Assembly (NCBI GenBank): GCA_026388185.1
Contig: JAPLKG010000005.1
Location: 1 to 64,000 of the forward strand
Origin: Candidatus Eisenbacteria bacterium
Lineage (GTDB): Bacteria; Eisenbacteria; RBG-16-71-46; JAFGJU01
Direction: 5' to 3'
DNA length: 64,000 bases
The stretch's first letter is position 1; every line of letters begins with the position of its first letter. This document shows, piece after piece, positions 30,660 to 34,443 of this stretch. A program made the position numbers and the translations under genes. The notes under the pieces are model-generated. The model had not been told where the DNA came from. It searched no databases and saw only the letters and a list, made by a program, of their open reading frames with translations.

Positions 30660-31919
30660 CTAAAAAGCAAAATCCACAACCAAGGCGTAAATATTTTCCT
30701 TGAGAGGATCTGTCTCTCCGGTTTCCCTGTGTGTGTATTCGGCGTGCAAGGCCACATTGACCGCCGTCCAGTCGCCGAAGTAGTACCTAAGAACCCCGGA
30801 ATAGGCTTTCACCTCCCTGTCACGGTCATACGATGGCGTGCAAATCCAGTTGTAGAGTGCCGAAGCGATCAGCCTGTTGTTCATTAGGCCCGCGTAATCC
30901 AGCTCCGCCAGGCCACCATCGAACTCGTAGTCTTCTGTCGGAGCAAGAACATTCAGAGAGTTGTCATCCACACCCTTCACGTACGACCCTTGAAGATTGA
31001 GCGTTTTCCAATTCAGACTGGCATGCCCACCGAATCTGTAGAACGGCTCGTTAGGGCCGCCGTCGGCTTCACCGGTAGGGGAGAGTGTAGCGCCCGAGAT
31101 CGAGAGCGGCTGCCAGCCGTAGTAGACGAACGCACCTATTCGTTGTCCCGCACTCTGTCCGTCCCCCGCGCCCATGGTTTGCGAAACGTTCAGGTAGACG
31201 TCTTTGTATCTGTTGTTGTCCGGGCTTGCTCCGGTGCCATTAACGACACCCAACCCATACTTGAATCCGCATCTCCACTGGCCGGTCGCTTCAACGCCAA
31301 TCTGATTGTCGTCGAAAACGAAATTGTTTTCCGGTGTTGAGAACGAATAGATCTCGTAGGGCTCCGTCAAATAGAACGAGCGTTTCGAGCTGATTGCGTG
31401 ATACGCCGGTTCGAATCTGCCGACCCTGACGTTCAACGCATCCTGTATGACGTTGCTGAACACGACGTTTCCCGACTCTAAGGCTCCCAATTGCGATGGG
31501 TTCGTGCCGCCTTGAGAACCGGTGTAGTCCGCTGAAGGCTCGTCCATCCTCGGCGTATAGATGAAAAGAAACGATATGTTCTTGTGCATAACTCCAGCCG
31601 CAAGCAAGTCCAGCCCCAGCATGTCAAACCCGGAAGTTGTAACATTCTTAGTGTTGTATCCCGAGAGCCCGGTAGATGTTCTTACGGCAATCGGGGGAGG
31701 AGTGTCAAACACGCTCTTCTCTCTTCCTTCCTGGCCGGGAATCTGGTAGCCGTTGTCCCTGAACCGCTGTCCGAAATCATTGAGTTTGGGGTAAGCAGTA
31801 TGGCACATGTTACAGTTGAAGCCGTGCTTCCTGGCGAACGCCGGAATCGCGTGACCGCCGGTAGGCATCGTGAGCTGTAACACGAAGAGAACGAGCAAAA
31901 GAAGACATGACTTTTTCAT
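30660..31919 (-). CDS. outer-membrane beta-barrel protein with an N-terminal c-type haem site
   Basis: This 419-aa protein has a signal peptide (cleaved after GGHA), then a single haem-binding motif CNMCH at residues 36-40, then a beta-rich region with alternating aromatic strands ending in phenylalanine (LVVDFAF), as expected for an outer-membrane barrel. The barrel is phosphate-porin-like (FSNVIQDALNVRVGRFEPAYH). Covalent haem on a porin points to electron transfer across the outer membrane, as in porin-cytochrome systems. It lies 14 bp downstream of a di-haem peroxidase gene in the same direction. No multihaem partner is visible here. Confidence 0.75.
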   Translation of the reverse strand: MKKSCLLLLVLFVLQLTMPTGGHAIPAFARKHGFNCNMCHTAYPKLNDFGQRFRDNGYQIPGQEGREKSVFDTPPPIAVRTSTGLSGYNTKNVTTSGFDMLGLDLLAAGVMHKNISFLFIYTPRMDEPSADYTGSQGGTNPSQLGALESGNVVFSNVIQDALNVRVGRFEPAYHAISSKRSFYLTEPYEIYSFSTPENNFVFDDNQIGVEATGQWRCGFKYGLGVVNGTGASPDNNRYKDVYLNVSQTMGAGDGQSAGQRIGAFVYYGWQPLSISGATLSPTGEADGGPNEPFYRFGGHASLNWKTLNLQGSYVKGVDDNSLNVLAPTEDYEFDGGLAELDYAGLMNNRLIASALYNWICTPSYDRDREVKAYSGVLRYYFGDWTAVNVALHAEYTHRETGETDPLKENIYALVVDFAF

Positions 31920-31933
31920 TCTCCTCTCCTCCT

Positions 31934-33004
31934 CTACTTTGGCAGTACTGAGGCCGGGATGGGCGTCACGGCTGCAACTTCAGGATTGAGGCTCGTCATG
32001 GCACGCGTCATGAACGCAACCAGTGCACTCACCTCCTGGTCAGTGAGTCCAAGGGGTACCATTATGCGATCGAGGTATGCGTCACGTGTGCCCCCGCCCT
32101 TATTGTAGAAATTGACCACGTCTGTCAGAGTCTTCTCCCCGCCCGTATGCATGTATGGCGGTCGTAGTGCAGCGTCTCTAACTGTCGGCGTTTTGAAGGC
32201 GCGCGTATCCTTGGGGTTTTTTGTGATTTCCGATCTACCATCGTCTACTTTGAGCGGACCACTCTGCGTGACACCTAGATTGTGGAATCTTCCATCCGTG
32301 AAATGACCGCCCCAGTGACATGCCGTGCAATGTGCCTTTCCGTTGAATATCTCTAACCCTTGCTTCTCGAGCGGCGTCAGGGCGGTATCGTCGCCTTTGA
32401 CAAGCCTGTCAAAAGGCGAATCCGTCGTGATGACGGTGCGCTCGAACGCAGCTATGGCCTGCGCCACCTGGTCGATCGTTACGGGCGTCGTTCCGAACAC
32501 ATTCTTGAACTCTTCCACATAACCTGGAATATCACCTACTGTTCTCAGCATTTGCTCATGAGTATTGCCCATCTCGACTGGATTCTGGATCGGCCCCTTG
32601 GCTTGTTCCTCGAGACTCGGGGCTCTTCCGTCCCAGAATTGCAGGGGTAGGTAGGCTGCGTTGGAGACTGGCGGAGCTCTGCGGCCGCCGCGCTGCGAAC
32701 CTATTCCCTCGCTCGTCGGACCCTTGTCAGCCCAGCCCGCGAGAGGGTCGTGGCATGTGGCGCAGCTAATGGTGTTGTCCTTTGAAAGACGGGTGTCAAA
32801 ATAGAGCTGTTTGCCCAGCATGATTTTCATGCCGGTCTGGGGATTATCGGCCGGGACAGACACTTGAGGCAGGTTGCCGAGTTTCTGCGGTCCCAGCGAA
32901 TGTACCTCCACCCCGGTGAGGGGTTGGGGCGAGTTGTCGGCAGCCAGAACCAGAAGCGGGACAAACAGGATTACAACAGCGAGAAATACGTGAATTCTCT
33001 TCAT
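31934..33004 (-). CDS. di-haem cytochrome c peroxidase / MauG family
   Basis: This 356-aa periplasmic protein has a signal peptide (LAVVILFVPLLVLAA) and two haem motifs, CATCH at 81-85 and CTACH near 226. Family segments LGKQLYFDTRLSKDNTISCA, QFWDGRAPSLEEQAKGP and FKTPTVRDAALRPPYMHTG match bacterial peroxidases that reduce H2O2 with cytochrome c electrons. ATG 33004 follows AGGGGGG; the frame is open to 33034 without a better site. It forms an operon with the haem-barrel protein, suggesting that electrons leave or enter through that barrel. Confidence 0.92.
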   Translation of the reverse strand: MKRIHVFLAVVILFVPLLVLAADNSPQPLTGVEVHSLGPQKLGNLPQVSVPADNPQTGMKIMLGKQLYFDTRLSKDNTISCATCHDPLAGWADKGPTSEGIGSQRGGRRAPPVSNAAYLPLQFWDGRAPSLEEQAKGPIQNPVEMGNTHEQMLRTVGDIPGYVEEFKNVFGTTPVTIDQVAQAIAAFERTVITTDSPFDRLVKGDDTALTPLEKQGLEIFNGKAHCTACHWGGHFTDGRFHNLGVTQSGPLKVDDGRSEITKNPKDTRAFKTPTVRDAALRPPYMHTGGEKTLTDVVNFYNKGGGTRDAYLDRIMVPLGLTDQEVSALVAFMTRAMTSLNPEVAAVTPIPASVLPK

Positions 33005-33162
33005 GTTGCCCCCCTTGTTCGAGTGAACGGACACAGAACCAACAATGTAACTGAATGCCAGGTGATCAATATGAACAGTTGCTCTCGCCGCGTTGGCCCG
33101 AACAGTCTATCAAAACGGCAAGGGGAATTGCAAGAGTTCTGACCTGCCCCCGTTAACGGAGT

Positions 33163-33192
33163 TTGACAAACCTGGGAACGGCGTGCTATAGA
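33163..33192 (+). promoter_or_regulatory. sigma-70-type promoter of the riboswitch transcript
   Basis: TTGACA (33163-33168), 18-bp spacer, TATAGA (33187-33192). A start point near 33199 would coincide with the first base of the riboswitch P1 stem. Confidence 0.75.
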
Positions 33193-33198
33193 TGAGAA

Positions 33199-33296
33199 AG
33201 TGCTTGGGGGAGCAGAAACGGCTGAGAGGGCTCCGCGAAAAACCTGGAGTCGACCCCCTGAACCTGTTAGGGCAATGCCTGCGGAGGGAAAGCACT
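33199..33296 (+). promoter_or_regulatory. TPP riboswitch (THI element)
   Basis: The arms AGTGCTT (33199-33205) and AAGCACT (33290-33296) form P1. The pyrimidine-sensing element CTGAGA is at 33222-33227, and the second half has the conserved CTGAACCTG-TTAGGGCAATGCC-GCGGAGGGA pattern (33259-33289). These are the hallmark bases of the thiamine pyrophosphate aptamer. Downstream, GCCTC (33304-33308) can pair with GAGGC in the ribosome-binding site (33351-33355), so control of translation is likely; no terminator hairpin is seen. Confidence 0.93.
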
Positions 33297-33357
33297 ATTC
33301 GTCGCCTCTTCTGCGGTGACGCACTGTTCCCTGCCGCCGGCATGCTTGGAGGAGGCA

Positions 33358-34443
33358 ATGAAACCGAAAGCAGCGCAGACAGGGAACGACCTGCCCGAAA
33401 TCGGAAAAATCTCCCCGGAAATATTCGACGAAGTCATCTTTCCCATGCTTGGTCGTAAGGACAGCAGCGTTCTGGTACCCCCTCAGCACGGTGTGGACGT
33501 CGGCGTCATCGACATCGGTGGGGGTTTTGTGATGGCCATCACCTGTGATCCGGTGTTCGTGGTGCCTCAGTACGGCTGGGAGCGCTCGGCGTGGTTCGCC
33601 ATCCACATTCTCGCCTCGGACGCCGCGACTTCCGGCTTGCGCCCCCGATACCTCGCTATCGACCTCAACCTTCCGATGAGCATCACAAAACATGACCTAG
33701 TGACTCTCTGGAAGACGATGCACAAGGAATGCGACAAGCTGGGCATCGCCATTGTCGCCGGCCACACTGCCCGATACGAGGGAACGGATTATCCCATGAT
33801 CGGCGGGGCGACGATGATGTCCGTCGGCCCCAAGACAGACTACATTACCCCGGCCATGGCGTCGCCGGACGAAGACATCGTGATCACGAAGGGACCCGCG
33901 ATCGAAGCATCGGCGCTCTTCGCAGTGGCCTTGCCGCGCCGTGTTGAGGAGGCCTACGGCCTGGTGTTCGCGGGACGTGCCGAGGCCCTCTTCTGGCAGA
34001 CTAGCGTTGTTGAGGATGCCCTCACCGCGGTCTCAGTCGGAGTGCGCGAGAATGGCGTCACAGCAATGCACGACGCCACCGAATGCGGCCTCTGGGGAGG
34101 GCTCTACGAGGTGGCTCGCGCTTCCCGCGTGGGGATGCGAATCGAAAAGGGAAAGATTCCGATTCCGGACGAGGTAGAGAAAATCTGCCGTCTCTTTGAG
34201 ATCGATCCCTTCTCTTCGATCAGCGAGGGCACTCTGATTATTACGTGCAAGAAAGCGAAGACAACGAAGCTTCTCTCGTGCTTGGAAGGGAAGGGGATTC
34301 TGGCGGCAAAAATAGGGGAGACCTGTCCGGAAGAACATGGAATAACTTTGCTCGAGAGAGATCACGAGATACCTCTCGAACACCCGAGGGTCGATCCTTT
34401 CTGGAAGGCGTTCGGGCAAGCCCTCGCGGCCGAGAGCAAGTAG
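33358..34443 (+). CDS. AIR-synthase/ThiL/HypE-superfamily enzyme under TPP control
   Basis: This 361-aa protein starts at ATG 33358 (GGAGGAGGC upstream). It has the two-domain PurM-like layout: an N-terminal half with GVDVGVIDIGGGFVMAITCDP, LASDAATSGLRPRYLAIDLNLP and AGHTARYEGTDYPMIGGA, and a C-terminal half with AMHDATECGLWGGLYEVARAS, the equivalent of the MxDxTxGG segment. Superfamily members bind ATP and phosphorylate or cyclise small substrates. It lacks the usual ThiL opening and reads closer to HypE-like AIR-synthase-related proteins, yet it follows a TPP riboswitch. A thiamine-phosphate kinase or a salvage/precursor step is inferred. Its stop is 6 bp from that of the convergent cstA. 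Confidence 0.8.
   Translation: MKPKAAQTGNDLPEIGKISPEIFDEVIFPMLGRKDSSVLVPPQHGVDVGVIDIGGGFVMAITCDPVFVVPQYGWERSAWFAIHILASDAATSGLRPRYLAIDLNLPMSITKHDLVTLWKTMHKECDKLGIAIVAGHTARYEGTDYPMIGGATMMSVGPKTDYITPAMASPDEDIVITKGPAIEASALFAVALPRRVEEAYGLVFAGRAEALFWQTSVVEDALTAVSVGVRENGVTAMHDATECGLWGGLYEVARASRVGMRIEKGKIPIPDEVEKICRLFEIDPFSSISEGTLIITCKKAKTTKLLSCLEGKGILAAKIGETCPEEHGITLLERDHEIPLEHPRVDPFWKAFGQALAAESK

Follow-up and report, generated by a model that had tools for sequence, protein, structure and literature searches.

A TPP riboswitch-linked gene of the PurM superfamily in Candidatus Eisenbacteria and other bacteria: a candidate thiazole-alcohol kinase

In the genome of a Candidatus Eisenbacteria bacterium, a TPP riboswitch precedes a gene of the PurM/HypE/ThiL superfamily, here called X, which raises the question of what step in thiamine metabolism its product might serve. 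The locus was analyzed within a stretch of 64,000 nt (contig JAPLKG010000005.1, positions 1 to 64,000; hereafter the window). A preliminary description, based on the letters of the DNA alone, had proposed that X encodes either a non-orthologous thiamine-phosphate kinase or a salvage enzyme. It had also remarked that no other thiamine gene is adjacent, which holds for the window; the neighbours of X there are unrelated to thiamine. Two genes recognized by eye, both on the minus strand and transcribed away from X, code for a di-heme cytochrome-c-peroxidase-like protein (31934-33034) and for a secreted protein of 419 aa that contains a CNMCH motif of the haem-binding type (30660-31919). The features of the X locus are collected in Table 1.

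Table 1. Features of the X locus (positions in the window)
Feature	Position	Strand	Basis
Sigma-70-type promoter TTGACA-18-TATAGA (-35 TTGACA, 33163-33168; spacer, 18 nt; -10 TATAGA, 33187-33192)	33163-33192	+	Read directly in the sequence
TPP riboswitch aptamer (RF00059)	33196-33306	+	54.9 bits; gathering score, 54.3
Possible anti-Shine-Dalgarno GCCTC	33304-33308	+	Complementary letters only
Shine-Dalgarno region GGAGGAGGC, just upstream of X	33348-33356	+	Read directly
Gene X (P0001), PurM/HypE/ThiL-superfamily enzyme, 361 aa, ATG start	33358-34443	+	Pfam AIRS and AIRS_C

The promoter is present as first described. An automated promoter scan did not pick it up, since the scan demands a T at the sixth position of the -10 element. 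A comparable arrangement, TTGAC(A/G)-18-TATA(G/T)A, precedes the aptamer in locus L003 and in genome G002. The aptamer itself proved to be complete, as had been claimed: the RF00059 match covered the full model (positions 1-105; E 5e-8 over the window) with a score just above the threshold, helices P1 to P5 form, and 24 of the 27 aligned pairs are standard. Model R1, built in this analysis from sequences that included the window copy, also detected it (E 1e-9). Judged by its sequence, the leader is an ordinary member of the RF00059 class, for which TPP binding and repression are predicted. A genome-wide search identified it as the only TPP riboswitch in this 2.62-Mb, 98%-complete genome, and X is the sole gene predicted to be under TPP control. 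Since no terminator was found between the aptamer and X, the switch likely acts at translation. The anti-Shine-Dalgarno element suggested earlier stands as far as the letters go, GCCUC (33304-33308) being complementary to GAGGC (33352-33356), but constrained folding showed no switch: imposing the aptamer left the accessibility of the Shine-Dalgarno region unchanged, most of its positions being about 80% or more unpaired.

Although the window aptamer scores only just over the threshold, its link to X is not due to chance, since a TPP model gave 17 matches in 69 homologous X loci (920 kb), every one of them immediately before X. This model was built in the present analysis; the matches include six of its own source loci, five of which had first been found independently with the Rfam model. 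The linkage spans Eiseniibacteriota, Zixibacteria, Calditrichota, Chloroflexota and Bacillota, and two further cases were seen in relatives (G004 and G018). In G002, the sequence downstream of a TPP riboswitch (L121:5680-5921) gives way within ~60 nt to roughly 100 N, beyond which lies the end of an unrelated gene. X was not found in this genome, perhaps owing to an assembly gap after the riboswitch.

At several of these loci, the riboswitch and X head an operon of thiamine genes. The gene orders found were TPP-X-TenA-ThiE-ThiL-ThiD (L008), TPP-X-ThiE-ThiL (L011), TPP-X-ThiD-ThiE-TenA (L045), TPP-X-ThiD-ThiE (L056), TPP-X-ThiD (L050 and L059) and TPP-X-TenA (G018). The TPP-controlled operon of S. 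aureus, tenA-thiD-thiM-thiE (PMC2766623), has the same gene set with thiM in the place of X, and a relative that does carry thiM (G049) has the order TPP-thiM-thiE. In the X-bearing genomes of L045, L050, L051 and L059, which have ThiG, this gene lies in a separate, TPP-controlled de novo operon, as would be expected if X serves salvage; in Bacillota with ThiG, the thiC-thiS-thiG operon has a TPP riboswitch of its own.

Membership of X in the PurM/AIRS superfamily, with the two-domain fold recognized at the outset, was borne out by Pfam matches above cut-off to AIRS (residues 47-151; 46.6 bits) and AIRS_C (residues 215-328; 67 bits) and by fold matches in the PDB. No other Pfam domain was matched, PF02110 (the ThiM domain) included. 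An AlphaFold2 model (pLDDT 93.8; two rows from plasmid records were left out of its input) had HypE as its nearest fold (TM 0.76/0.81), then SelD and ThiL, and the segment AMHDATECGLWGG, pointed out earlier as HypE-like, is indeed present. X fell below the cut-off for every NCBIfam equivalog, among them HypE (TIGR02124; 71.3 bits, the best score, against 251.6), ThiL (TIGR01379; 66.2 bits against 184.15) and SelD (TIGR00476; 44.3 bits against 125). In the trees, X and its homologs formed one clade separate from ThiL, HypE, SelD and PurM. The phylogenetic comparison advised in the preliminary description thus set X apart from ThiL, a single X and ThiL clade being marginally rejected (AU p 0.046), and gave it a clade of its own rather than a place inside HypE; a sister relationship to HypE was not rejected (p 0.32, tree topology test). 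In databases the family is only AIR-synthase-like ('AIR synthase family protein') or HypE-like. No paper tying AIR synthase or COG0309 to thiamine was found in the open-access collection searched; an earlier description in subscription journals is possible.

The idea that X replaces ThiL as a non-orthologous thiamine-phosphate kinase draws on the common superfamily and the TPP riboswitch; ThiL resembles X in its PurM-type fold, its conserved acidic residues and its pathway. Such a replacement is now extremely improbable. A canonical thiL, whose absence from the genome had been proposed as a check, was found elsewhere in it (TIGR01379, 283.9 bits against a cut-off of 184), thiL is even part of the X operon in L008 and L011, and X, apart from falling into a separate clade, has GHT for the GGDT of ThiL and HDATE for its IDISD. 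Replacement of ThiL by X is thus largely refuted. Besides X and ThiL, the genome encodes PurM, PurL, SelD and HypE (next to HypD), so that true counterparts coexist with X also for the other two families to which it might be assigned. That X is a HypE- or SelD-type protein of hydrogenase or selenium maturation, with TPP control by chance, would agree with its best NCBIfam score (HypE, 71 bits), its nearest fold and the topology test, but is very improbable: TPP control and thi operons recur across several phyla, and X ends ...FWKAFGQALAAESK, without the C-terminal PRIC cysteine with which HypE of the same genome and of E. coli ends. X is like SelD (selenide, water dikinase) in a GGH(S/T)-like motif (GHT), an N-terminal K-I-S-P stretch and the SelD Lys, but lacks the catalytic Cys/Sec. 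True membership in either family was rejected on the sub-cut-off scores and the missing cysteine or Sec. Of the findings that the preliminary description had set against its own proposal, the canonical thiL is therefore present, but X is not a true HypE (carbamoyl dehydratase) and its aptamer is real. Its broader view of X as a PurM-superfamily enzyme distinct from ordinary ThiL, with TPP control predicted from the aptamer, was upheld by the sub-cut-off score and the separate clade.

The thiamine gene inventory points to a different step. The genome of the window encodes ThiC, ThiD2 (directly before ThiE), ThiE and ThiL, while genome searches found no ThiG, Thi4 or ThiM; ThiE is therefore left without a known source of thiazole phosphate. 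Weak Thi4 Pfam matches in this genome were short N-terminal pieces and are read as FAD-binding motifs of other proteins. ThiG, Thi4 and ThiM are also all absent from the genomes of L008 and L056, where ThiE is next to X. None of the 51 X-bearing genomes tested contained ThiM, but this absence is only suggestive and exclusivity is unproven, since few genomes of these phyla have ThiM in any case (3 of 37 relatives lacking X, the local baseline, and 0 of 22 that carry X; Fisher p 0.29). ThiG was present in 5 of 50 X-bearing genomes (L012, L045, L050, L051 and L059) and Thi4 in 20 of 51 (among them L005, L006, L007 and L017). About half of the X-bearing genomes, many of which are metagenome bins that may be incomplete, thus have one or the other, and about half, including that of the window, have neither. 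Such coexistence is easier to reconcile with a salvage enzyme than with a replacement thiazole synthase.

The invariant residues D64, D88, D239 and E242 of X align with acidic positions of ThiL that we take to be metal/ATP ligands; at the position of E242, HypE, SelD and PurM have R or G. Among the direct observations (aptamer, gene, conserved linkage, gene inventory and operon partners), the inventory gap and the operon partners, together with these ThiL-aligned residues, favour a thiazole-alcohol kinase. We therefore give about an even chance to X being a PurM/HypE/ThiL-superfamily kinase of hydroxyethylthiazole (or carboxy-hydroxyethylthiazole), non-orthologous to ThiM, that supplies ThiE with thiazole phosphate. 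The salvage enzyme named as the second option in the preliminary description is in this form the best current reading, given the TenA/ThiD/ThiE operons and the lack of ThiG, Thi4 and ThiM in the genome. The host would make the pyrimidine half itself (ThiC, ThiD2) and take up the thiazole from outside; X would convert the thiazole alcohol and ATP into thiazole phosphate and ADP, which is the job of ThiM; ThiE would join the two halves and ThiL would finish the synthesis. When plentiful, TPP would bind the leader aptamer and shut X down, probably at translation. ThiM (hydroxyethylthiazole kinase; PF02110, ribokinase fold) holds the same position as X in TPP salvage operons with TenA, ThiD and ThiE, but is unrelated to X in sequence and fold; the two would also have the reaction in common. 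Several points weaken the assignment of X as a thiazole kinase: its fold is nearer to HypE than to ThiL, no thiazole transporter was identified, haloarchaeal homologs adjoin thiamine-transport genes, and such a kinase does not explain the sulfur-gene neighbours of X in a subclade of Dehalococcoidia, WOR-3 and others. The last is the strongest objection, and suggests a connection with sulfur.

The haloarchaeal homologs bring in the possibility that X is a thiamine kinase, which would turn thiamine and ATP into thiamine phosphate and so feed imported thiamine to ThiL. These proteins, also annotated 'AIR synthase family protein' (Haloarcula and Halobacterium plasmids), are 38% identical to X and basal to its clade; no TPP riboswitch was found in the loci searched. 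In Haloarcula they lie beside genes for the binding protein of a thiamine ABC transporter and for a thiamine-binding protein of the MTH1187 type; in Haloarcula sp. GH36 (L137:3487-6008), and also in L146 and L147, the X-like gene is divergent from these two genes, on plasmids. An MTH1187-like gene, recognized by eye, is divergent from X in L004, and ThiL, which would take up the product, is encoded in the genome of the window and adjoins X in L008 and L011. A thiamine kinase would, however, leave ThiC, ThiD2 and ThiE of the window's genome, and ThiE in L008 and L056, without thiazole phosphate, and the partners of X (TenA, ThiD and ThiE) are a precursor-salvage set; we regard this function as unlikely. 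A more distant AIR synthase family protein of Haloferax alexandrinus (L139:5001-6011; 28% identity) adjoins cobyrinic acid a,c-diamide synthase and cobalamin adenosyltransferase, and possibly represents a cobalamin-linked sister family.

The sulfur genes point in another direction. The X genes of one subclade (Dehalococcoidia, WOR-3 and others) lie beside cysteine desulfurase, NifU, Rrf2, CysK, HcyBio, MnmA and NadA. Such sulfur-transfer clusters, which NadA adjoins, were found in L017, L024, L030, L031, L037, L046 and other loci, and the TPP riboswitch is retained on some of their X genes (L017 and L024). Thi4 can have the same surroundings: in G072, the genome of L017, it lies beside MnmA, FdhD and NadA (L156:3546-7498), as X does elsewhere, and in G074 and G108 (loci L157 and L158) it adjoins HcyBio. 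Since Thi4 has these neighbours in three genomes, the sulfur-gene neighbourhood may be a thiazole neighbourhood, and we keep in consideration that X acts in a third de novo thiazole route in place of ThiG and Thi4, as a PurM-like enzyme that uses ATP to close the ring or to activate sulfur. ATP-driven closure of an azole ring is the reaction of PurM itself. The desulfurase, NifU, CysK, HcyBio and MnmA genes that flank X, and the lack of both ThiG and Thi4 in about half of the X-bearing genomes, the window's included, are consistent with such a role, as is a Thi4 C-terminal fragment directly after X in L016 (11148-11522; about 125 aa, 66% identity), apparently a truncated gene. Against this, X would be redundant in the five genomes with ThiG and the four with Thi4 named above, yet is kept and TPP-controlled there, and in Bacillota it lies in a salvage operon, apart from that of thiG. 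With the counts found for the two enzymes, straight replacement of ThiG or Thi4 is unsupported as a rule. We consider participation of X in a de novo route unlikely, and slightly less likely still the wider proposal that a third thiamine-thiazole route with X at its core replaces ThiG/Thi4 in many anaerobic lineages.

If X is a thiazole-alcohol kinase, it would be a new, non-orthologous enzyme for an already known step, the ThiM reaction, and a function could be given to a widespread family whose members are so far called no more than 'AIR synthase family protein' or HypE-like. The PurM superfamily would acquire, in the pathway that already includes ThiL, a kinase activity new to it. For little-studied anaerobes, among them Eiseniibacteriota and Dehalococcoidia, the apparent gap that the lack of any known thiazole enzyme leaves in vitamin B1 metabolism would be closed, and this would alter predictions of which organisms in sediments and groundwater need vitamin B1 or its precursors.
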